DNA from: a virus
Reading direction: 5' to 3' (one strand)
Virus record (IMG/VR): IMGVR_UViG_3300024301_000086
Span: 1 to 25,093 of that record
Length of the DNA stretch: 25,093 nt
Part shown: positions 2 through 19,177 of the stretch, piece by piece
Layout: the number at the start of each line of letters is the position of its first letter
Position numbering within the stretch: position 1 is the stretch's first letter
Translations under genes and position numbers: made by a program
The notes under the pieces: model-generated
Told to the model about the DNA's origin: nothing
Database searches by the model: none
What the model saw: only the letters and a program-made list of their open reading frames with translations

Positions 2-691
2 CCGGAGTATGTGAACCGATTATACGGATCACTGCTTAGGCACATTAATGTACCATTTAACTTCACATGCATCACTGATGACGCAACGGGACTCCGTAAA
101 GAGATCAAGACGCTCGATTATAAAACGTTTGACCCTTTCCCGTACCCCAAAGATCGAATCTTCACCAGAGAGAAACTGGTACTCCTCAATCACTCTATGG
201 CAGACCATAACATGTGGATTGACTTAGATGTATTAATACATGGAGATATCACAGAGTACGTTACTCGTGATCTAGAAAAGCCGACTTTCATTTTTAATCA
301 TTGGAATAGTATAGATGAAACTATGCGTAGGTTTGGTTGGGGTGCTGTATGCCATATTAATAGTTCGTTTGTATGTTGGACACAAGACCGAGGAAAGTGG
401 TTGTATGACTATACCGTGAAAGAGATCGATAAGATTGCATTTACGTATAACTCATTAGATAAGTATTTGTTCTATAGGCATTGGACTAAGGATAATCTTG
501 GATTATGGGAAGATGGCATTGTTTATAATTATAATTACAATAATCCAAAGAATGAAATGAAGAGCGACTATAAGATAGCGCTTTTTAATACATCACATAT
601 ACAAATGACTGGTCGACCAAAAGATGCATTAGAACTTCATGAAGCAGAAGGATGGGCTAAAGAAATGTGGGAGTCTTACGATGAGAGTTGA
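2..691 (+). CDS. Glycosyltransferase, GT-A-like, 5' end outside window
   Basis: The reading frame is open to the left edge, and the codons before the first GTG (position 11) read P-E-Y-V-N-R-L-Y. This matches the internal E-Y-V-N-R-L-Y of the paralogue at 2572-3327, so the gene starts upstream and the GTG at 11 is an internal Val. A D-L-D motif at 221-229 sits in a hydrophobic W-I-D-L-D-V-L context, as in GT-A enzymes, where it binds the metal and nucleotide sugar. The rest is rich in Trp and Tyr, as is usual for this phage family. The protein is probably cytoplasmic and moves a sugar from a nucleotide donor to an unknown acceptor. It is the first visible gene of a five-gene overlapping plus-strand operon, and its stop overlaps the next gene by 11 bases. 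The fold assignment is fairly safe; substrate and acceptor cannot be read. Confidence 0.75.
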   Translation, partial: PEYVNRLYGSLLRHINVPFNFTCITDDATGLRKEIKTLDYKTFDPFPYPKDRIFTREKLVLLNHSMADHNMWIDLDVLIHGDITEYVTRDLEKPTFIFNHWNSIDETMRRFGWGAVCHINSSFVCWTQDRGKWLYDYTVKEIDKIAFTYNSLDKYLFYRHWTKDNLGLWEDGIVYNYNYNNPKNEMKSDYKIALFNTSHIQMTGRPKDALELHEAEGWAKEMWESYDES

Positions 692-1112
692 TAACCAGTT
701 AGCATATGATTGGTTAATGGAATCAGAATGGGGCCACGTTTCGTATATCGCTCCTGGAGAGATCCCAGATGAGTTTCTGATGATAGATAAACTCGGCATA
801 GAATATAACTGTTTTGATATGAACCCAATGTATAAAGGGAAATTCATTATATGCGACGTGATATTCGATTATCCAAAGGGAATATATAATAACATTCTAA
901 ACTTCAACTGTCACAAGATGTACCCTATTGGTAAACTATATCGTGGAGAATTTATCTTAATAGGGTCTGATGATCGGCATCCCGGAGATTGTAATCCAGT
1001 AGATTCTTGTGATCAATTAATAGAACAGAATTTGTTAACTACCGTATATAAACAAGAGAAGGTTTCTACAAATAGAAATAATTTTTATATCGTATTTGGG
1101 AATAATTTATGA
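681..1112 (+). CDS. Small protein of unknown function in glycosyltransferase operon
   Basis: This encodes 143 residues. I chose ATG 681 over the upstream in-frame ATG at 639 because 681 has a GGGAG ribosome-binding site at 668-672 and overlaps the previous stop by only 11 bases, like its neighbours; 639 has no such site and would overlap by 53. The protein is acidic and Tyr/Asn-rich, with the stretches C-F-D-M-N-P-M-Y and N-F-N-C-H-K-M-Y-P. No signal peptide or membrane helix is visible. I have a weak impression of small phage proteins annotated as methyltransferase-like, but I see no glycine-rich SAM-binding motif, so I give no function. Its position between a GT-A-like and a GT9-like gene, with an ATGA overlap onto the latter, suggests it serves the same glycan pathway. 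Confidence 0.6.
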   Translation: MRVDNQLAYDWLMESEWGHVSYIAPGEIPDEFLMIDKLGIEYNCFDMNPMYKGKFIICDVIFDYPKGIYNNILNFNCHKMYPIGKLYRGEFILIGSDDRHPGDCNPVDSCDQLIEQNLLTTVYKQEKVSTNRNNFYIVFGNNL

Positions 1113-1927
1113 TAAACTTAGAATGGTATGCTGCGATTGGATACGGAGATATCTTATTACCCATTTCGTATGCACATAATATATCACACACATTTCGAGA
1201 GGAAGTTAACATTAATTTCCGATATAACGAAGGTATAGAGTACAAATATAACGAGAACTCCAAAGAGTTGCTATGGGAACAAGCAGAATATTTAAATTCT
1301 ATTTGCGATAAATCTAATATCGCCGGAGTTGCAGTTTCACATAAATTTCATGATGTCAGTAGAATACGATGGATTGGGTATCATCAATCGTTATTACGTA
1401 CAGCTAAATACCATAATCAATGGTATATGAATGAAATTAAATACGAAAAGGTTCGTAAGATAGTTGTTGGTTCAACGACTAATAATAAAATTCCTCTAGA
1501 CAAATATCAGGGTGGGTCTAAGACATGGAAGTCTTCTCAAGACTGGAATATGTTAGAGAACGATTTAAAAACAATTTCAGATTCATACGAAATAGTTCAC
1601 ATAGACTACACTACTCCACTACCTGAAGCGATTGAACACCTTTCGGACGCAGCATTGTTTATTGGATATCATGGAGGAATGTCTTGGTTAGCTAGATTCT
1701 GCGCAACTCCTTCTATCGTCTTGGTTACACCAAACTCTCTCAGTAATGATATGTTCTCTAATGCGATGGTTAGGAGAAACATTTGTATAAGAGGAGTTGA
1801 TCATATAGAGATGCTGATCCATGAATGCACTTCTATATTAGAGCGATATATTGGGGGGTTTAGAAATAGAGATCCTGCAAGGAGGTATTTTGAAGAAGCA
1901 CTGACAAAGAAATTATATGTTAAATAA
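1109..1927 (+). CDS. GT9/heptosyltransferase-like glycosyltransferase
   Basis: This encodes 272 residues. The ATG overlaps the preceding stop (ATGA), giving translational coupling. Near residues 180-205 the sequence A-L-F-I-G-Y-H-G-G-M-S-W-L-A-R-F is followed by a hydrophobic strand (S-I-V-L-V) and P-N. This resembles the donor-binding C-terminal domain of GT-B enzymes of the ADP-heptose:LPS heptosyltransferase type (family 9), in which a D/H-x-G-x-x-H/W-L-A motif contacts the nucleotide. The protein is shorter than bacterial heptosyltransferases (about 320-350 residues), and the N-terminal Rossmann half looks reduced: the start I-G-Y-G-D-I could be the short acceptor-side loop. The 3' end overlaps the next gene by 11 bases. 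The likely role is adding a sugar to a surface or virion glycan. The GT-B assignment rests on one motif region, so it is moderate. Confidence 0.6.
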   Translation: MINLEWYAAIGYGDILLPISYAHNISHTFREEVNINFRYNEGIEYKYNENSKELLWEQAEYLNSICDKSNIAGVAVSHKFHDVSRIRWIGYHQSLLRTAKYHNQWYMNEIKYEKVRKIVVGSTTNNKIPLDKYQGGSKTWKSSQDWNMLENDLKTISDSYEIVHIDYTTPLPEAIEHLSDAALFIGYHGGMSWLARFCATPSIVLVTPNSLSNDMFSNAMVRRNICIRGVDHIEMLIHECTSILERYIGGFRNRDPARRYFEEALTKKLYVK

Positions 1928-2579
1928 GGTATTCATTGGTTATGATGAGAGAGAAGATATCGCAGCACATGTATGTGAGTATTCTATTCGGTCCAGGACA
2001 TCTTCTCCGTTAGATATTACGTTTCTAAAGAGTTCTGATATACCAGAATACAATCGAATAATAACAGAACCACAATCTACAGACTTTACATTCACTCGTT
2101 TCTGGGTTCCGTACTTATCGGGATATAAAGGAACATCAATTTTTGTAGACTGCGACTTTCTGTTTCTAGACGACATACAGAAACTCATTGACATCGCCGA
2201 TAATCAAACTCCAGTGAGTGTATGTAAGTTAGATCCATATACACCAAAGAGTAACGTTAAGATGGATAATGTTCCTCAGCATCGATCATATCGAAAGAAC
2301 TGGGCTAGTCTGATGGTGTTCCGTAACGATTTATGTACGATGTTAACTCCGGAGTACCTGAACAACGAAGTTCCTGGGATTAATCTACATCACTTTACGT
2401 GGACAGATTCTATTGGAGAATTACCATTATCATGGAACACTCTGGATGGATATAGTACCACGCAGAATCCAAGTGCAATACATTATACAGATGGTGGTCC
2501 ATGGTTTCCTCAGTATCAGAATACATACTATTCGCAATTATGGATAGATGAGTTAGATAGGTATCGAAAAAGTGGTTAA
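1917..2579 (+). CDS. GT-A-like glycosyltransferase (DxD)
   Basis: This encodes 220 residues. The N-terminus K-V-F-I-G-Y-D-E-R-E resembles GT8-type or similar phage glycosyltransferases that open with a strand ending in G-Y/F-D. The metal-binding motif D-C-D is at 2148-2156 (F-V-D-C-D-F-L-F), about 75 residues in, which is the expected distance. Preceding residues F-T-R-F-W-V-P-Y resemble the conserved F-x-x-x-R-x-x-x-P region before DxD in GT8-like enzymes. A late H-Y-T-D-G-G-P-W segment could be the C-terminal His/Gly/Trp signature that often binds diphosphate. The start overlaps the previous stop by 11 bases. No membrane segment is visible. Sugar and acceptor are unknown. Confidence 0.72.
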   Translation: MLNKVFIGYDEREDIAAHVCEYSIRSRTSSPLDITFLKSSDIPEYNRIITEPQSTDFTFTRFWVPYLSGYKGTSIFVDCDFLFLDDIQKLIDIADNQTPVSVCKLDPYTPKSNVKMDNVPQHRSYRKNWASLMVFRNDLCTMLTPEYLNNEVPGINLHHFTWTDSIGELPLSWNTLDGYSTTQNPSAIHYTDGGPWFPQYQNTYYSQLWIDELDRYRKSG

Positions 2580-3327
2580 TTTTGTATGTCTTAAATGGGG
2601 AACCAAGTATGATGCGGAATACGTTAACCGCCTTTACACCATGCTCAAAAGAAACTGTCGAGAAGAATTCACTCTCTACTGTTGTACCGAAGATCGGTCA
2701 GGTATATCAGATGAAATAAAGATAGTACCACTACCTATTGAAAAATATGATTTACAAACGTATTGGTGGAAACTCTGGATACTGTCTAAAGAGTTTCCAG
2801 TAGATGGTAAGTGTATATTCTTTGACTTAGATACTGTTATTCAAAATGACATACAGGAGATGGTCGATTTTCAATGTGGAGAAGATATATATGTTCTATC
2901 TGCTCAATGGAGAATCAGATATAGATTGACGGTTAATCAGTATTATACATACACCAATTCCTCTATCATAATATGGGACACCAATACAGAATTAGGCATA
3001 TTTCCACATTATATCAAGCACAATTACTATTATGAGATGAGGTATTATGGAAATGATGAATACCTAGAGTTAGAGCATCCTGATAAAATAAAAACCCTAC
3101 CTATTCATTGGGCATATTCACGATTAGCCGGTTATGACGATAGTGATGACGAAAAACGAAATCAGTGTAGGACAGACCTATTCGTAAAAAAACAATTCAA
3201 TATTTCATATAGAATGTGGAATATGCCTGATCGTATGATATGCTTATTTAATGCTATAGGCGAGCATCATACCGATATATCAATTTATAATGGATATGAA
3301 CATTATTGGTCAGATTCAATATCCTGA
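2572..3327 (+). CDS. GT-A-like glycosyltransferase, paralogue of the first gene
   Basis: This encodes 251 residues and starts at GTG 2572, inside the previous gene (8-base overlap ending in TAA). The N-terminus V-N-F-V-C-L-K-W-G-T-K-Y is a typical first beta strand plus donor loop. It is followed by E-Y-V-N-R-L-Y, shared with the left-edge gene, so the two are paralogues. The DxD motif D-L-D is at 2824-2832 in F-F-D-L-D-T-V-I. A late P-I-H-W-A-Y segment is the likely C-terminal His region. This is the last gene of the plus-strand operon; its 3' end overlaps the 3' end of the convergent oxygenase-like gene by 25 bases, with no room for a dedicated terminator. Glycosyltransferase activity is well supported; the substrate is unknown. 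Confidence 0.75.
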   Translation: MVNFVCLKWGTKYDAEYVNRLYTMLKRNCREEFTLYCCTEDRSGISDEIKIVPLPIEKYDLQTYWWKLWILSKEFPVDGKCIFFDLDTVIQNDIQEMVDFQCGEDIYVLSAQWRIRYRLTVNQYYTYTNSSIIIWDTNTELGIFPHYIKHNYYYEMRYYGNDEYLELEHPDKIKTLPIHWAYSRLAGYDDSDDEKRNQCRTDLFVKKQFNISYRMWNMPDRMICLFNAIGEHHTDISIYNGYEHYWSDSIS

Positions 3328-3947
3328 ATCATCTCATCCCACATCCACTGATCTCTGATAACATACGATATAGTGAGTCGGGGAGTGTCGACACTTTTAG
3401 CACAGTGCCAGACGATTTTATCTGGTTCTGTGAAAGAACCGAAGTATCCTACTTTAGCAGACCATCCCTCAGGATCAGGAACACGGATTAAATCCTTAGA
3501 GACAGGATCTTGATATTCAAAGTATCCCTTTCCGCCAGGAGGCGAATATGTCATGATTAAATTTTGACCAGCACAGTTAGCATTATGATGCCAACCAATA
3601 TATCCATCTTCTGGATAATACATCATCAAAGCATTAAACTCGACTCCTAAAATACTAATGATATCATAATTCAGTTTATCTGCAATTTCTTTCCAACCTT
3701 CTGGCCGGTCTACACTTGATGCAGTATGTAAATCAAATCCAACTGATATTTCTGGATACCCATATTCTTCTATTTCTTGTGATTGTGCTTTAATAAGATA
3801 TTCATACGAACATCCTATATCTGAAGAAACTTGTCTATTTCCAAAATATAATTTATCAATCAAGGATGAGTCGTGAGAGAACATCCATGAAGAGAATTCG
3901 TTAAGAGTTTCTAATAATCTATTATTTTTTAAGGATACGCTGCGCAC
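3303..3947 (-). CDS. 2OG-Fe(II) oxygenase-like protein
   Basis: This encodes 214 residues from a GTG start at 3947, which overlaps the upstream glycosyltransferase by 26 bases; a possible AGAAG ribosome-binding site lies just upstream. Residues 118-126 read G-W-H-H-N-A-N-C-A, followed by a Y-S-P-P-G-G turn, then I-V-W-H near 168-171 and T-P-R-L-T-I-S near 178-184. This order (His motif, distal His, then Arg plus beta strand) is that of the double-stranded beta-helix dioxygenases, and phage members often carry G-W-H-x-N. The candidate iron ligands are His120 or His121 and His171, and Arg180 would hold 2-oxoglutarate. The usual acidic ligand two residues after the first His is Asn here. The likely role is hydroxylating a protein side chain or sugar in the pathway of the neighbouring glycosyltransferases; the substrate is unknown. 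Confidence 0.65.
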   Translation of the reverse strand: MRSVSLKNNRLLETLNEFSSWMFSHDSSLIDKLYFGNRQVSSDIGCSYEYLIKAQSQEIEEYGYPEISVGFDLHTASSVDRPEGWKEIADKLNYDIISILGVEFNALMMYYPEDGYIGWHHNANCAGQNLIMTYSPPGGKGYFEYQDPVSKDLIRVPDPEGWSAKVGYFGSFTEPDKIVWHCAKSVDTPRLTISYVIRDQWMWDEMIQDIESDQ

Positions 3948-4686
3948 GAACTTCTGATTTCTTTAATGTATAGTGATAAATAATAGGACCTTCGAGTGCT
4001 TCGGATTTATCATATATGCTAATAAAATTCCATCTAGCATCTTGTCCTGGGAAAACATCTATCTTTATAGATTTATATTTCTTAGAGGTATATAGTCTAT
4101 AGAAGGTATATTGATCCCAAGGGCGCATAGCTTTTCGGTGTTGAGGCCAAGGCCAAGGATCAGCAGTCGTTTGATAACCATACTCTGTCCACCAATCCTG
4201 CATCATCTGAAGAGTCTTCTTTTTATTATTATATAGGAAAACTCCACAATGCCAAATCAATTCTTCTGTATCAGATATTTTAACATCAGCGGCTGCATAC
4301 TCACGAATTTTAGTTAGCATGATATCGCTGTCACCTAACTGCTGGAAAATTTTTGTTATATCTTCGTGCTGTACTTCACAATCTGCATCGATGTATGCAG
4401 TAATATCATAGGTGGTTCTAGGTAATGCATATAATTTAGCACGAGGATGATCTGGCGCAGTAAGATCAACTACATCGAATATATCTCTGTGTCGTTCATC
4501 AAATAGTTCTGGCTGAGTACATAATGTAATTTTAGCGTCTGGGTAGAAATCTAGAATCGACTCGGCGAGATTAATCGCAGAATTATAATATACTTTTGAT
4601 ATACTCGCCGCTATTAAAAATCCATTACTCTTGATTTTCTGTGATTTCTGAGGAGTCGGTTCCTGAGGGGTCTTGTTCTGATGCAT
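3922..4686 (-). CDS. GT-A-like glycosyltransferase (DxD), minus-strand
   Basis: This encodes 254 residues. The ATG at 4686 lies within the upstream gene (62-base overlap); no other ATG, GTG or TTG occurs between it and the first conserved strand (F-L-I-A-A-S), so this start is preferred despite a polar Gln/Pro/Lys-rich lead of about 20 residues. The motif A-Y-I-D-A-D-C-E near residue 97 is a clear DxD. It is preceded by A-K-L-Y-A-L, as in enzymes where the chain from Lys to DxD lines the donor pocket. Later W-H-C-G-V-F-L-Y and a Trp-rich stretch (W-P-W-P) fit a phage glycosyltransferase that senses a bulky acceptor. It is read after the coiled-coil gene and before the oxygenase-like gene, both overlapping, so the three are probably co-translated. 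Confidence 0.72.
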   Translation of the reverse strand: MHQNKTPQEPTPQKSQKIKSNGFLIAASISKVYYNSAINLAESILDFYPDAKITLCTQPELFDERHRDIFDVVDLTAPDHPRAKLYALPRTTYDITAYIDADCEVQHEDITKIFQQLGDSDIMLTKIREYAAADVKISDTEELIWHCGVFLYNNKKKTLQMMQDWWTEYGYQTTADPWPWPQHRKAMRPWDQYTFYRLYTSKKYKSIKIDVFPGQDARWNFISIYDKSEALEGPIIYHYTLKKSEVRAQRILKK

Positions 4687-5143
4687 TATTCAATTCTTTC
4701 ATTAATAATATTGTAGTATATGCTTGTACTTCTGGAATAGATTTTGATTTTCTAATCATTGCTTTCGCAGCACGATCTTTCGAATTCTTAACTGCTTCGA
4801 TTTCAAATGCTTCTAACTTATATGAGAACAGAGCTTCTTGTTTTTGAAATTCCACGCTTCTTTTACTAGCATCTTCTTTTCGGATCCGATCTTCTTCTCG
4901 AGCCTTCTGCATACGCAAAACTTCTTCAGTTGTAGCCTGGTCGATAGAATCTATTCCGATAGTTTCCATGAGTGTATCCCAGTCCTCGCTGGTTGTGCCT
5001 TCTGCGGGCTTTGAAACTACTGCCGAAAATATCTGAGAAGATCCATTATCTAAGTTGACCACGATATCACAATTTACACAGTCCTTAGTTTCAATATTTT
5101 CCCATGTCGCATTTTTAAATTTACGTGAAATTGCTTGTGCCAT
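4625..5143 (-). CDS. Unrecognised protein with charged helical region, next to fibre genes
   Basis: This encodes 172 residues. The ATG at 5143 is one base after the stop of the fibre-like gene, with an AAGGA ribosome-binding site about 9 bases upstream. The N-terminal 45 residues look like a small beta unit (K-D-C-V-N-C-D-I-V-V-N-L-D-N-G). Residues about 75-130 are strongly charged and helical (E-E-V-L-R-M-Q-K-A-R-E-E-D-R), probably a coiled coil. A further helix, I-P-E-V-Q-A-Y, comes before an acidic, Ser/Thr-rich tail. The position right after two tail-fibre genes is typical of fibre chaperones or small virion proteins, but I do not recognise the family. Its end overlaps the glycosyltransferase by 62 bases, which is unusually long for this window. 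Confidence 0.6.
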   Translation of the reverse strand: MAQAISRKFKNATWENIETKDCVNCDIVVNLDNGSSQIFSAVVSKPAEGTTSEDWDTLMETIGIDSIDQATTEEVLRMQKAREEDRIRKEDASKRSVEFQKQEALFSYKLEAFEIEAVKNSKDRAAKAMIRKSKSIPEVQAYTTILLMKELNNASEQDPSGTDSSEITENQE

Positions 5144-5144
5144 T

Positions 5145-6266
5145 TTATTTTGTCCTTAACCATAAATATGCTGTCGATATATCTTTAACAGTCGAAACGA
5201 CCGTCCAAGATGAAAAACTCCTATCTACCAAACGTTGAAACGTCCTATTAACTGCTCTCTCATAAGTTTCGTCCTCAAACCCCAGAAATGATATATTCAT
5301 TCTAGACTTATCCTCTCGCACGACCCAACCAGAAAAGTATTCACCCTCTCTTGTACCATACGTTCTGCGATAGTTTCTAAGGTACTCTGATAGAAAGGAG
5401 AATACTCTATCTCCAGCATATCTTCCGACATAATTTCTCTGATATTCTCCAATGAAATTTCTATTATAGGCGCCAACGTATGATATATCCTCCAACGAAA
5501 CTCTCGTATCTTTAATACTACTTCCCATCTTATACCAAGTTTGTCCTGTCGTTGCAGGATTCTTCTCTTGTAATCTATATTGACCACGGCCAGTATCTAT
5601 AACATAGTCTGCATAAGAATCGAATAATCCCTGTAACTCGGTGTCACTCATTTCACGAAGATCCCCGTCAGTAGTGATAAGTCTTAGTGGACGATATTCA
5701 GTTGGTACTGTATCACCAGTTTTCCTCCATATCTTAATCTCAGAAGATCCTGCTTGATTAGTATTACTCAAAGTGTGTACGCTAATCCATGTTTCTCCAG
5801 GTAATGCTGGACTATCCACTTGCATTACATAACTTCCCAGACCCCTGGATGCTAATTCTAGCACCACACGATCAAAGAATTCTGTTCTGATCGAAGCATT
5901 TGTCATCGGACGAATTCCAGTAGTGGTGTTTCCATCATCATCGATAACAATTGTAGAGTATTCGACTGGCCGAGTTGGGGCAGTTGTTCCCGCATCAAGT
6001 TTCTGCGTTACGTCATAAACTTGTTGTTGTATAGTGGTATTCGCATCATGCGTTCCTATCGTATCTGAATAATAAGTATCAATATACGTTCCTATAGAAG
6101 TCTCATCATCATTAATACCAATCGTGAGATTTCCGCCAGATTGGTTCTTATCAGCAATAGCTTTACATATTTGATAAACAGGATATTCTAGACGAACGTC
6201 GTTCATCTCCTGTAATCCAGCAAAATTATTAGATACGTCGTATAGTATCGATAGTGGTCTAGACAT
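5145..6266 (-). CDS. Fibre-like virion protein with Tyr/Arg/Asn repeats
   Basis: This encodes 373 residues. The start ATG 6266 follows AGG at a 6-base spacing. Residues 1-60 (P-L-S-I-L-Y-D-V-S-N-N-F) form a compact N-terminal module. Residues 125-230 are mixed alpha/beta (T-E-F-F-D-R-V-V-L-E-L and L-Q-G-L-F-D-S-Y). Residues 263-304 hold degenerate repeats built on Y-x-R-N-F/Y-x-G/R-x-Y, such as Y-N-R-N-F-I-G-E-Y-Q-R-N-Y. Marine T4-like phages carry longer versions of such aromatic/Arg/Asn repeats in tail-fibre proteins. No signal peptide or membrane helix is seen. It lies directly after the large fibre gene with a 12-base gap, so it is probably a virion component of the fibre or outer baseplate. 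Its exact place in the particle is unknown. Confidence 0.65.
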   Translation of the reverse strand: MSRPLSILYDVSNNFAGLQEMNDVRLEYPVYQICKAIADKNQSGGNLTIGINDDETSIGTYIDTYYSDTIGTHDANTTIQQQVYDVTQKLDAGTTAPTRPVEYSTIVIDDDGNTTTGIRPMTNASIRTEFFDRVVLELASRGLGSYVMQVDSPALPGETWISVHTLSNTNQAGSSEIKIWRKTGDTVPTEYRPLRLITTDGDLREMSDTELQGLFDSYADYVIDTGRGQYRLQEKNPATTGQTWYKMGSSIKDTRVSLEDISYVGAYNRNFIGEYQRNYVGRYAGDRVFSFLSEYLRNYRRTYGTREGEYFSGWVVREDKSRMNISFLGFEDETYERAVNRTFQRLVDRSFSSWTVVSTVKDISTAYLWLRTK

Positions 6267-6278
6267 ATTATACCTATA

Positions 6279-8951
6279 TTATGATGTAGGAGGGAATAAT
6301 TGTGTTCCCGATGAATTATATATTTTAGGCATCAATGCACGTACAGCTGCTTTGAACGTTGCATCAGTTCCATCGATTGAAGTACTTATACTGACATCGC
6401 CTAAGTTATTTACAGTACCAGATCCGGAAACAATTCCCGTAAGTTCGATATCAAAATCGTTGACGTTAGCAGTTATTAACCCGTCATTATTGACAGCTAT
6501 AGCTATACCGAGTTGCAAATCCTCGTTACTTGATCCCTTTGCTATCAACATATTACTGATCCTTGTAGATACAGCAGTCCCGAAATCGGTTATTGATGTT
6601 GATGTATGTACGTGGTCGCCACCAGATACCGTTACTGTCGCCGTTACATCTTCAGATCCATCGAAAGTAACATCTCCACTCAATCCACCAGAAAAAGTTA
6701 TTTTCCTTGCGTTGGACCATTTTAAAGATTCGTTTGAAGTTGTAGAATTTCCTTGGAGATCACCGATAACTACTCTTGGAGCTTTGCCCTTAATTACTAT
6801 TGGAGCATTATTAACCGGCGCATTTGTAAATGTTAGATATCTACCACTTACTTCATATCCGGTAGTAAGTGTCCCAGCAACTTTTACAGAAAGAATTTTA
6901 TCTTTATTATTTAAATAATATGAAAGTAAATATGTTTTAGTTGCGCCGTTACCAGTATATGATTCAGTGAATCCCGGAGTTGTACTATCTCCCCAATAAT
7001 CCATCGTCAAGTTGCCTGACATAGTATCGCCAGTGACATTCACGAATCTGTTATCTGCTTCTGTTTCGGTGTAATATCTTCCATCAAGGTCCGCCGAAGT
7101 GATAGCAGTAATGTGTCCATATCCGTCAAGTGTGATATCTTGAATGACACTACCATTACTATTATCTACAGATGCTTGAGTAGATGTATCAGCATGAGCG
7201 ATAGTCCACTTCGCCTTTTCGGTTGCGTCTTGCGCAACAACAATGCCAGTTGCAGTTACTCCAGTTGGTTTAGCAGCTTCTAACTTACCTGCAATGTAAT
7301 ATGAATTACTTCCATTGTTGATGGACCAATCATCTTCAGTCTCATCCCAAACTAGTTCCGGTTGATCCAGTAACGGATATCCTGTTGTGTTAGAATACCC
7401 ACGATTAACTTTGATTCCTACGTTTTCTGAAGGAGCAGTATAGGCGCCAGTTCCGAGATTAAGAACGTCTGGATATCCAACGAAGTCGCTATTCAATAAC
7501 AAGATGTTATCAGCGAGGTTTACTTCGGTGGAGTTAACTGTAGTAGTTGTTCCGGTGACAACGAGGTTACCCTTGACTTCTACGTTATTGTCAAATGTGA
7601 CATCACCTTTAAATAAAGATGTATCTGTAGAAGCATCTCCAACAGTAATACCATCATTGAATATGGGTTTGTCAGAGAATGTCTTAACACCAGCGATAGA
7701 TTGTGCGCCGGCGGTTCTTACAACGGAAGAATCTACTTTCAATAGTGTGATATCGTTAGATTCGCCGCCGGTTCCCGGAGTTGAAGTGAAACTAATACCA
7801 GGCGTAGTCGGATCAAGCTGTAACGTTTTTACATAAGCACCAGTAGTATCTGTACCGAGTTCAACTTTATTAGCTTCTACAGTAGTTGCGATTGAAACGC
7901 TGCCTAGATTAGTGACTGTTCCGGTTCCGGTTACATCACCAGTCAGTGTGATGGTAAAGTCATCGACGTTAAAATCTAACGTATTATCAGAAGTTTGATA
8001 AGTTACAGCAATTCCACTTTGAGTTCCGCCAGAGATAACATCAGCAAAGTTTGTATTATCTAAGATGTATGGAGTAATTGCGGTTTCAACGCCAGTGGTC
8101 GGATTGACGACAATTCTCTTAAGATGCCATTGATTATCCGTAGAATCCCAATAAACCCTGACATCAGAACGAATGACGTCGTCACTATCATCTCCAGGAA
8201 GTTTATAATCAGTTCCTCTATTGATGATAAAACCGCCACTAGGTGCAACAGCAGAACTGACATCACCGAGGCCAATGAACGTTGTATTGATGTTTAGTTT
8301 AGCGTTGCTGCCGCCGCCTACTGTCAATGTTCCTTCAGAGATATCTAGAGTTCCGTCAATTGTAAATGTCTTACCAGAAGGTAATTTTAAATTTGAAAGA
8401 ATTTCTTGTGTAGAATTATTAGTGCCGCCGACCGTAGTATGTTCTAGATCTAATTTTACTGTATTACTATATCTACTATCTTCACGACTTACAATTTCAT
8501 TAATAGAACCTACGAAAGTACCCTTTTCGGTAGTCGTTAATGTAGACAGTACACCATGTTCGCTATTCAGTTCATTGATAGCTGCGACGATGGTAGACTT
8601 TGCAGATGTATCTAGACTTGTAAGGACACCAATCTCGGAATCCAGTTCGTTGATAGCGCTAACGAGAGTAGATTTATCAGTAGTTGTTAGAGAACTGATA
8701 ACCCCAATCTCAGCATCGTGTTCATTGATTGCACCAACAAGTGTAGGCGCAGTGGTAGTTAGCGCTCCAATAATTCCAACTTCAGTTTCTACTTTGGTAA
8801 GAACTTCTATAACAGCACCAACAACCGTATCTGATGTGAGTGTCGGATTACCACCAAGAAGGGAATGATCACCAAGCTGTTGAGCAGTTGTGTTTGTATT
8901 GAGACGCCATGAATCAAATGTCTCTAGTTTGGATGTGTTTACAATAGCCAT
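6279..8951 (-). CDS. Large tail-fibre-like virion protein
   Basis: This encodes 890 residues. Residues 43-153 carry four to five copies of a helical repeat centred on A-I-N-E with a 25-residue period (at 74, 99, 124 and 149; a weaker copy at 46), usually preceded by L-x-T-T-x-K-S-T-L-V. Such repeats form trimeric stalks in phage fibres. The remainder is beta-rich, low in Cys and high in Gly/Thr/Asn/Asp. It includes V-T-G-D-T-M-S-G-N-L-T-M (a common fibre shaft motif) near residue 640, and a 31-residue beta module present twice (328-358 and 829-859). The C-terminus (Y-N-S-S-G-T-Q-L-F-P-P) is short, without a visible chaperone domain. It probably forms a trimeric fibre attached to the baseplate and used for host recognition. 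It is co-directional with the baseplate operon, 1 base after the preceding stop. Confidence 0.78.
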   Translation of the reverse strand: MAIVNTSKLETFDSWRLNTNTTAQQLGDHSLLGGNPTLTSDTVVGAVIEVLTKVETEVGIIGALTTTAPTLVGAINEHDAEIGVISSLTTTDKSTLVSAINELDSEIGVLTSLDTSAKSTIVAAINELNSEHGVLSTLTTTEKGTFVGSINEIVSREDSRYSNTVKLDLEHTTVGGTNNSTQEILSNLKLPSGKTFTIDGTLDISEGTLTVGGGSNAKLNINTTFIGLGDVSSAVAPSGGFIINRGTDYKLPGDDSDDVIRSDVRVYWDSTDNQWHLKRIVVNPTTGVETAITPYILDNTNFADVISGGTQSGIAVTYQTSDNTLDFNVDDFTITLTGDVTGTGTVTNLGSVSIATTVEANKVELGTDTTGAYVKTLQLDPTTPGISFTSTPGTGGESNDITLLKVDSSVVRTAGAQSIAGVKTFSDKPIFNDGITVGDASTDTSLFKGDVTFDNNVEVKGNLVVTGTTTTVNSTEVNLADNILLLNSDFVGYPDVLNLGTGAYTAPSENVGIKVNRGYSNTTGYPLLDQPELVWDETEDDWSINNGSNSYYIAGKLEAAKPTGVTATGIVVAQDATEKAKWTIAHADTSTQASVDNSNGSVIQDITLDGYGHITAITSADLDGRYYTETEADNRFVNVTGDTMSGNLTMDYWGDSTTPGFTESYTGNGATKTYLLSYYLNNKDKILSVKVAGTLTTGYEVSGRYLTFTNAPVNNAPIVIKGKAPRVVIGDLQGNSTTSNESLKWSNARKITFSGGLSGDVTFDGSEDVTATVTVSGGDHVHTSTSITDFGTAVSTRISNMLIAKGSSNEDLQLGIAIAVNNDGLITANVNDFDIELTGIVSGSGTVNNLGDVSISTSIDGTDATFKAAVRALMPKIYNSSGTQLFPPTS
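8493..8825 (-). repeat. 25-residue (75-base) tandem repeats in tail-fibre gene
   Basis: The encoded A-I-N-E core recurs at residues 74, 99, 124 and 149, an exact 25-residue period, with a diverged copy (A-V-I-E) at 46. Each unit has a T-T-x-K/P-S-T-L-V lead and an E-I-G-V-L exit. The copies are more alike as protein than as DNA, so they are old repeats under selection, not a recent expansion. Confidence 0.8.
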
Positions 8952-16892: not shown

Positions 16893-18734
16893 TTAGTGCC
16901 TAGAAGTAGTCTTATAGTTAACAGTACCAGCAGAACCAGATACTGCGATAGTATCGATTTCTCCATTAACAGTAACTTGCGTCATATCAACGGATAGTAG
17001 TTGATTGCGCTTTGGCGCCAAATCGTTCGAGTTAGGAATGAATGTCAATTGAATAGGGTCTGTGGTGTCTGGTCGGAAATTGTTAATAACTACTCGACCT
17101 TCAGTTGTATATATTCTTCCAGCATCTAATGAAACTGTTGTTCTAATACTATCCACGATCTTGTACATGTATATCCTACGATCAGTCGATCCGGTAATCT
17201 TAGTATCTGCGAAATAGTGTACGATACCATTTATCAAAAATGATGTCGATTCCATAACAGATTCATCTGAAGAAGTTGTGTAGATTGGAGAGGCGAATTC
17301 CAAGTCATAATTATTATTCATCGTATTAGATGGAGTGATGATCTTAAACATATACACTCTCATATATGAGTTAAGTATAGCAGGATCCGAAGCGTCGATG
17401 TTTCTTAGTAATTTTGAGAATCGGAATACGCCATCAAATTGTTTGAGTTCAGTATCGTTATAATCTGATACAACACTAGAAACAAGAGACTGTAGTTCAG
17501 CCTTCTTCCGGTCGGTTAGGTTAGGATTATACTTAAAGAATGTTTCCAACTTGATGTAGGTATATTCAGGGTCTACCATAAATGGAGTAATTGATACGAC
17601 GTTCTTTTGCTTCAGAATATTCTCTACGATGAATGACTTCTCTGCAGTAGTCAAAGTCTCAGCACTCTTAGGTTTAATTGCAATGAACACTTTACCATAG
17701 TCTGGCGGATTTGCATCTTCACCACCCCATACGGAGATAGCATCAATATCACCATATTCTTTAACGATAATGGCACGATAATCATCGGCAGTCACCGCTC
17801 GGTTCTGTGTGATATAACTCAATGGAGAATTGAATCGAATAGATTCTATATTCTCACGAACAGATCCGCCGGCCGAAGCACTAACAGTCACGACGGTAAT
17901 ATCAGAATTACCTTCTATCTCTGACACAATATCAAATGTGCGAGCGCCATTGGCGTCCTCAGCAGAGGTATATACATATTCCAACTCTACAATATTATCA
18001 GATCTTGGTTTAGCTCCAATGATTCCGTCGCCGAAATATATTTCATATTTTGCAGCACTATTCTCTTGATAGAAATATACTTTAGTGTCACCACCAACAC
18101 TAGTTAGCGTAGTGAATGGGGTGTATATGTCATACTGTGTAGAATTGTCGTTAGCTTTAATACGAACTCGCATTGTACTCAGGTCGATGTCTTCATCAGG
18201 AATCTCAAACTTCTGATTCGGTATGTATTCGTCGATGCGATAGGTCATCGTTTTTAGAGTTCCTTGTTTAACAGGAACATTCTCAAAGAAGAATCTATTG
18301 TTAGCAGAGTCATATAATACGGTTATGGATTCTACAACAACAAATCCATATTCTTCACCGTCGATTACAGAAATTAACTTAGTGCCTCGTGGAAGAGTTA
18401 TACTAGGTGGGATTGGCGTTCCAATTGGGTTATTTACCGTGATGTTAACGTATGCGGTCGCAGCGGATGCTGAGCGAGGAGTATATCCCAATAATTTAGC
18501 ATGAGATACTACATTACCACGGATTTGAGCTGAATCTAGAAATGCTTCATTCAATGCGAAGTGCGCTGCCATTGCATTGTAGTGAGTGTTGTATGCCAAG
18601 ATGTCCAGTAGGATAGACATACCAGACCCCTCAAAGTCGTAGTCGTTATATTTACCTTGAGCTCTAAGATAGTTCTTGATATTATCTTTGATTTGATCAA
18701 AGTCTAATTCTGTGACGTTTAAGTTAACTGCCAT
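16893..18734 (-). CDS. 6: Baseplate wedge protein gp6
   Basis: This encodes 613 residues (T4 gp6: 660). The N-terminus L-D-F-D-Q-I-K-x-N-I-K-N-Y-L, then D-Y-D-F-E-G-S-G-M-S-I-L-L-D-I-L-A-Y-N-T-H-Y-N, then L-L-G-Y-T-P-R-S-A, is diagnostic for gp6 and is shared with the Mu gp47/gpJ baseplate family. The middle carries Y-F-G-D-G-I-I-G, and residues near 320 read I-T-Q-N-R-A-V-T-A-D-D-Y, both standard family landmarks. gp6 dimers form the inner iris ring that opens during contraction. The ATG shares one base with the gp25 stop (TAATG), and AGAGAG lies upstream. Confidence 0.93.
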   Translation of the reverse strand: MAVNLNVTELDFDQIKDNIKNYLRAQGKYNDYDFEGSGMSILLDILAYNTHYNAMAAHFALNEAFLDSAQIRGNVVSHAKLLGYTPRSASAATAYVNITVNNPIGTPIPPSITLPRGTKLISVIDGEEYGFVVVESITVLYDSANNRFFFENVPVKQGTLKTMTYRIDEYIPNQKFEIPDEDIDLSTMRVRIKANDNSTQYDIYTPFTTLTSVGGDTKVYFYQENSAAKYEIYFGDGIIGAKPRSDNIVELEYVYTSAEDANGARTFDIVSEIEGNSDITVVTVSASAGGSVRENIESIRFNSPLSYITQNRAVTADDYRAIIVKEYGDIDAISVWGGEDANPPDYGKVFIAIKPKSAETLTTAEKSFIVENILKQKNVVSITPFMVDPEYTYIKLETFFKYNPNLTDRKKAELQSLVSSVVSDYNDTELKQFDGVFRFSKLLRNIDASDPAILNSYMRVYMFKIITPSNTMNNNYDLEFASPIYTTSSDESVMESTSFLINGIVHYFADTKITGSTDRRIYMYKIVDSIRTTVSLDAGRIYTTEGRVVINNFRPDTTDPIQLTFIPNSNDLAPKRNQLLSVDMTQVTVNGEIDTIAVSGSAGTVNYKTTSRH

Positions 18735-19177
18735 TATCGGATTCTCTCTAAATATAATTGTACTTCTGATTCAGTATCAACAGTAACAATGTTAAACGTT
18801 ATCGTTACATAGTAAGCATTATTATCAGAATCATCTTGAACTTCTACCTTGATGTCGCTTACTCTAGGTTCATATTTGGAAACAACGTTCCTGATGTACG
18901 ACTTAAGCATAAACATAGTATCAGGAGTAGCATTTTCAAATAACAAGTTGTTTACCCCAGAACTCAATTCTGGTTGAAATGGTCTTTCATATTTCCCAGT
19001 CATAACCAAATTCTTCACAGCATTTTTAACCGCTGCAATATCCGTAAGAGGAATAATATCCTTCTTGTTTGGATGTGGCGTCAACGATAGGTCTAGATCA
19101 GAATATTGCTTACCTCTTGAAACAAGTGCTGTTCTCTGCCCCGATACGTTGTAGTCTGATAGGTTTTCTGTACTCAT
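18734..19177 (-). CDS. 25: Baseplate wedge protein gp25 (lysozyme-like fold, TssE family)
   Basis: This encodes 147 residues (T4 gp25: 132). The N-terminal part Y-S-D-L-D-L-S-L-T-P-H-P is the usual gp25 opening, and the E-P-R motif that docks onto the sheath/gp53 region is at residues 103-105. The family is conserved from phages to type VI secretion (TssE) and nucleates sheath assembly. This is the first gene after the 83-base gap. A TATAAATA octamer ends only 5 bases before the ATG, and a sigma70-like promoter lies further upstream. The ribosome-binding site is weak (only AAGA-like purines); no alternative Met lies before the conserved block. Confidence 0.93.
   Translation of the reverse strand: MSTENLSDYNVSGQRTALVSRGKQYSDLDLSLTPHPNKKDIIPLTDIAAVKNAVKNLVMTGKYERPFQPELSSGVNNLLFENATPDTMFMLKSYIRNVVSKYEPRVSDIKVEVQDDSDNNAYYVTITFNIVTVDTESEVQLYLERIR

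Follow-up and report, generated by a model that had tools for sequence, protein, structure and literature searches.

A candidate fibre-modification cassette of oxygenase-like, glycosyltransferase-like and coiled-coil genes linked to aromatic tetrad repeat fibres in phages

Results

The virus record IMGVR_UViG_3300024301_000086 (IMG/VR) is a single contig of 25,093 bases, which we call the window. Its minus strand carries a T4-like tail and baseplate block that ends in two fibre genes (FIB1 and FIB2) followed by three further genes encoding a coiled-coil protein (CC), a glycosyltransferase-like protein (GT) and an oxygenase-like protein (OX), together termed the cassette, which is probably dedicated to modifying the adjacent fibre. 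Gene coordinates are taken from open reading frame (ORF) calls on the window sequence, and these reproduce what a first-pass annotation of this DNA had described, namely overlaps of 26 bases between the OX and GT frames and 62 bases between GT and CC, and a co-directional position behind two fibre genes. The features are:

3303..3947, minus strand: OX, Fe(II)/2-oxoglutarate-oxygenase-like protein with a double-stranded beta-helix, H120-x-N122, H181 and R190; 214 residues, GTG start (ORF call, AlphaFold model, structural matches, residue conservation)
3922..4686, minus strand: GT, GT8-like (glycogenin-like) GT-A glycosyltransferase, DxD at residues 100-102; 254 residues (ORF call, model, glycogenin-1 match, invariant residues)
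4625..5143, minus strand: CC, coiled-coil protein; 172 residues (ORF call; homologues directly before GT in 42/42 non-redundant loci)
5145..6266, minus strand: FIB2, repeat-fibre protein and proposed acceptor; 373 residues (N-terminal domain and C-terminal end like those of the repeat-fibre family; matches the giant fibre of phage C48C1)
5328..5483, minus strand: short aromatic period-4 repeat inside FIB2, residues 262-313 (shuffle test)
6279..8951, minus strand: FIB1, tail-fibre gene of a different family that adjoins the cassette; 890 residues (PHROG tail-fibre matches)

In family searches no Pfam or PHROG model names any of the three cassette proteins; CC is likely to serve as a fibre-assembly chaperone or adaptor.

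Scans of IMG/VR with GT and OX profiles, in which the GT-first scan was blind to neighbouring genes, gave 160 loci, and these contain a non-redundant set of 42 GT clusters (<80% identity) with both flanks present. In 41 of the 42, profile searches over the loci find GT immediately preceded by CC and immediately followed by OX, with median gaps of -23 bases (CC-GT) and -10 bases (GT-OX), so that the reading frames of the cassette mostly overlap, and a pairing or order arising by chance is excluded. The sole exception is locus L098, where a second fibre gene separates GT from OX and OX therefore still lies directly behind a fibre; this inserted gene, at 2258-6651, belongs to the repeat-fibre family described below, as though fibre and oxygenase form a pair. 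The distance matrices of CC, GT and OX are correlated (r 0.74-0.78, with 0.74 for GT-OX; 0 of 999 permutations as high), which at the level of sequence shows co-inheritance, a result expected equally for any jointly inherited genes. GT without its cassette partners was not found among the loci scanned, whereas OX paralogues with the same His-x-Asn site occur alone, beside DNA-metabolism genes and without a GT nearby (L145 1063-1740, L161 2345-3016, L118 3068-3697, and C48C1 18267-18920 and 40130-40804). Of the outcome named in the first-pass annotation as a refutation, the two genes occurring independently and away from fibre genes, only the oxygenase gives examples, in these solitary paralogues.

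Among 50,697 public phage records compared at the protein level, C48C1 (OQ984149, listed as Kyanoviridae) is the only phage with relatives of OX, GT and CC, at 32-38% identity and again in the order CC-GT-OX directly behind a repeat fibre, here of 3347 residues; a DNA-level search of the phage record collection gave no match. Neither the tetrad repeat nor the cassette was found described in the literature searched, subscription papers being mostly beyond its reach. A contig assigned to a Bifidobacterium breve metagenome-assembled genome (L167, 1-6491) carries a repeat fibre, CC, GT and OX together with convergent glycosyltransferases, and looks like phage DNA misbinned into that genome.

At nearly all loci the gene upstream of CC encodes a fibre in which aromatic residues recur at an exact period of four, with the consensus [YF]-T-G-[N/D] (mean tetrad Y 73%/F 26%, T 41%, G 62%, N 27%/D 16%) and arrays of up to about 400 tetrads. 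When each protein is compared with shuffled versions of its own sequence, period-4 aromatics exceed z>4 in 36 of 43 genes upstream of CC, and periods 4, 8 and 12 are enriched in 32-35 of the 43, compared with two for period 6 and none above z 4 for periods 2, 3, 5, 7 and 9. Control ORFs of at least 200 residues from the same loci reach z>4 in 8 of 222 cases, all eight being second fibres that adjoin the first.

Because the period was first noticed on loci selected by GT and OX, the test was redone from the repeat side, by scanning IMG/VR for DNA encoding [YF]xG[ND] tetrads with the cassette ignored and retaining closed ORFs followed by 2.5 kb or more of DNA. Of the 70 ORFs so obtained, 63 are accompanied within 6 kb on the same strand by CC and GT, and 61 by OX (45 and 43, respectively, when collapsed to 52 non-redundant loci). 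The loci lacking CC and GT comprise three low-complexity ORFs that are unrelated and four stretches whose DNA stops ahead of or within the cassette, and two others keep CC and GT but stop ahead of OX; every genuine repeat fibre with enough downstream DNA has the cassette behind it. A control scan for aliphatic tetrads ([VL]-x-G-[ND]) found the cassette behind 0 of 51 ORFs, a weak comparison because most of these hold one or two pattern matches.

Longer arrays of V/L-T-G-N/D tetrads are present in structural proteins of the Synechococcus cyanophages S-RIM2 (L168, 3405-9143) and ACG-2014g (L169, 3492-8606), and are apparently an aliphatic form of the aromatic repeat. Both fibres had matched the repeat, but they show no aromatic period-4 excess, and no CC-GT-OX lies behind either; annotation places a 2-oxoglutarate (2OG) oxygenase close to the fibre of ACG-2014g, and this gives no match to the OX profile. 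The repeat fibres of L017 (3-5156) and L025 (1-5046) have frequent Trp, and Lys at tetrad position 3 replacing the usual Gly (68% of the 399 tetrads in L017), and their cassettes are intact.

FIB2 is by its sequence a member of the repeat-fibre family: its N-terminus matches the profile of the other upstream repeat fibres (domain E 1.5e-27, Z=100), its C-terminal end YLWLRT resembles the YTLYVRT of the family, and it matches the giant fibre of C48C1. The first-pass description of this fibre left out its aromatic tetrads (YVGA YNRN FIGE YQRN YVGR YAGD ... YLRN YRRT), which the spacing test has since detected: residues 256-320 contain nine aromatic pairs at spacing 4, a number reached in 0 of 20,000 shuffles, and the whole protein contains ten against 4.7 expected. 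FIB1 has PHROG tail-fibre matches (best E 1.3e-16) and by the family profile is not a repeat-fibre member; a short segment of it, residues 406-426, matches the N-terminal domain of the lower-baseplate protein BppL (E 8e-7).

The AlphaFold model of OX (predicted local distance difference test score, pLDDT, 93.5; predicted template modelling score, pTM, 0.90) has a prolyl-hydroxylase-like double-stranded beta-helix. Its closest folds are PiuC (Z 11.5), a bacterial prolyl hydroxylase (P4H, Z 11.0), PHD2 and the PBCV-1 collagen prolyl hydroxylase (Z 10.1), the matches spanning about 150 residues at Z 10-11.5, which places OX by fold in the double-stranded beta-helix superfamily. In 107 distinct sequences, from cassettes and solitary genes, H120, N122, H181 and R190 are invariant wherever present, and the two iron-ligand histidines and the basic 2OG residue (H120, H181, R190) lie on the strands predicted for this fold. 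PiuC, the prolyl hydroxylases and PHD2 have canonical HxD sites, whereas every one of the 106 OX sequences covering this position has H-x-N in place of the HxD/E...H triad; judged from motif order and spacing and from predicted strand positions, N122 would occupy the place of the carboxylate in HxD/E enzymes. The 2OG-Fe(II)-oxygenase-like gene of the first-pass annotation is therefore upheld in its modelled fold, but its motif is H120-x-N122 and not HxD/E.

The GT model (pLDDT 93.5, pTM 0.88) has a glycogenin-like GT-A fold and matches glycogenin-1 with Z 17.1 over 192 residues (root mean square deviation 3.4). D100 and D102 of its DxD motif (D100-A101-D102) are invariant in 40 homologues, D191 and N220 are also invariant and H238 is nearly so, a set that we take to resemble the GT8 pattern. 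A GT-A fold with DxD agrees with a GT8 assignment. The GT8 profile PF01501 matches 8 of the 40 members (best E 3e-4) but not the window GT, which has only a sub-threshold match to Glycos_transf_2 (E 0.0023). Sequence-profile searches found no relative of either enzyme in the PDB. Structure prediction, proposed in the first-pass annotation as a check, has thus confirmed both enzyme folds, including that of the DxD glycosyltransferase it had named.

On the plus strand at 11-3327, a run of glycosyltransferase-like ORFs converges on the cassette (phrog_1962 glycosyltransferase, phrog_28018, weak GT8/GT61 matches). About 25 other loci have homologues of two of these ORFs next to the cassette, on the strand opposite to it. 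Their products might lengthen a first sugar.

Discussion

The linkage of the cassette to a single fibre type, seen both from the cassette and from the repeat, strongly supports modification of the neighbouring fibre, and we regard it as highly probable that this repeat fibre is the substrate. It is also probable, if less firmly so, that the three genes at 3303-5143 are a cassette dedicated to modifying the fibre at 5145-6266, at or near its aromatic tetrads. In the proposed mechanism CC would help the fibre to fold, or present it to the enzymes, OX would hydroxylate residues in or near the aromatic tetrad repeat, mostly [YF]-T-G-[N/D], and GT would add sugars to residues in or near it; catalysis by both enzymes, the acceptor residue and the identity of the sugar we infer. 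The earlier proposal that the pair modifies a fibre is thus supported in part: the pair is co-inherited, it sits behind fibre genes, and its link with a single fibre type holds from either side. We set aside the DUF4815 protein as acceptor, as no linkage to it was seen and the linkage found points to the repeat fibre. It had also been noted that the fibres lack collagen G-x-y repeats, in keeping with which the candidate acceptor is a period-4 aromatic repeat.

Which residue would be modified is constrained by repeat composition. Pro and Lys have a median of 0 per tetrad (30 loci, repeat region only; the L017 group is Lys-rich), and because they are nearly absent from most tetrads, hydroxyproline or hydroxylysine of the collagen type is unlikely as a general answer and Pro/Lys hydroxylation was not adopted as the general mechanism. 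Tyr and Ser/Thr are present at medians of 68% and 58% of tetrads, with minima of 8% for Tyr (L133), 24% for Ser/Thr (L076) and 11% for Asn/Asp (L140). The Phe-rich repeats of L133 (92% Phe at the aromatic position) and L047 led us to discard Tyr as sole acceptor; Tyr, Thr/Ser and Asn/Asp are each a possible candidate.

Several observations weigh against a dedicated, tetrad-directed cassette. No one acceptor residue is abundant across all repeats, the repeat of FIB2 itself is short and partly degenerate, and OX paralogues exist without GT; an Asn replaces the canonical iron-binding carboxylate in every OX member, and the ORFs of the aliphatic control are mostly not long arrays, which weakens that control. 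That hydroxylation readies the site for the sugar is a tentative proposal, towards which we incline slightly less than away. More doubtful still is the fullest form of the hypothesis, an independently evolved phage analogue of collagen biogenesis in which up to hundreds of aromatic tetrads would be hydroxylated by a His-x-Asn oxygenase and the new or a neighbouring hydroxyl glycosylated by a glycogenin-like enzyme, with the aid of a dedicated chaperone.

A serious alternative, to which we give considerable though not the greater weight, is that both enzymes act on the fibre independently and on different residues, GT directly on the hydroxyls of Tyr or Thr/Ser and OX on another residue such as Asn/Asp, or on the sugar. 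The Tyr and Ser/Thr of the repeats already supply hydroxyls, so that a sugar acceptor needs no hydroxylase, and glycogenin, the best structural match of GT, glucosylates Tyr; however, the OX and GT genes nearly always overlap and are co-inherited, and the Phe-rich repeats of L133 mean that Tyr alone is not a universal acceptor. We think it improbable that OX is no hydroxylase but a His-x-Asn protein that binds or chaperones the repeat or catalyses another oxidation. This would account for N122 in place of the Asp/Glu iron ligand in all members, and loss of the carboxylate alters the chemistry of some relatives, for example halogenases. Yet sequences only about 30% identical all keep the two histidines, the Asn and the 2OG-binding Arg, as would fit selection for a functional site, and human AspH hydroxylates Asp/Asn with two His iron ligands only (PMC13168262).

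Less probable again is a cassette that lies behind the fibre only as cargo and has a different target, for example a glycan on the host surface or some other protein of the virion. The convergent glycosyltransferase-like block is compatible with this, but genes carried as cargo should move, or be lost, independently of the fibre, whereas the linkage with a single repeat type holds in both directions even between lineages that have diverged. Related phages often conserve the order of tail-region genes, and the arrangement could on that account be an accident of neighbours in one phage lineage; this seems very improbable, as 42 non-redundant GT clusters keep both order and fibre type, the OX paralogues located elsewhere are without GT, and no complete genome was found with the repeat fibre but without the cassette.

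What is new here is a specific acceptor candidate and an association of cassette and repeat fibre that holds in both directions. With no Pfam or PHROG name and relatives in one of 50,697 phage records, the system has largely been missed by annotation; it offers a defined candidate acceptor repeat, three genes that can be tested together and an unusual His-x-Asn iron site conserved in more than 100 distinct sequences. If the dedicated modification cassette is real, some aquatic phages make a long, regularly decorated fibre with their own hydroxylase, sugar transferase and helper, and a virus-encoded hydroxylase and glycosyltransferase system acts on a fibrous protein other than collagen.

Each component has a known counterpart from which it differs. 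Glycogenin (GT8) is the closest solved fold to GT and has the DxD motif in common with it at about 16% identity, but it self-glucosylates, whereas for GT the acceptor would be in trans, on the fibre. The closest folds to OX share only about 8-13% sequence identity with it and have other substrates. AspH, a 2OG protein hydroxylase of Asp/Asn (PMC13168262), demonstrates that such an enzyme can do without a carboxylate iron ligand, although its site holds water where OX has a conserved Asn and its substrates are EGF-like domains. Mycobacteriophages such as Maravista encode glycosyltransferases thought to modify virion proteins (PMC11256854); there the capsid protein is the proposed target, while here the target would be a fibre, an oxygenase is also present and the linkage is repeat-specific. 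Collagen is modified by lysyl hydroxylase together with collagen glycosyltransferases, in mimivirus too (R699; PMC9546862), and here the likeness extends to a repetitive fibrous protein, an enzyme of 2OG-oxygenase fold and a glycosyltransferase, in the mimivirus case also virus-encoded. The cassette differs in its occurrence in phages, its lack of G-x-y repeats, the near absence of Pro and Lys from most tetrads, small separate enzymes, a GT8-like glycosyltransferase, an HxN iron site and an extra coiled-coil gene, which suggests a system resembling animal collagen modification in its working but built from different parts.
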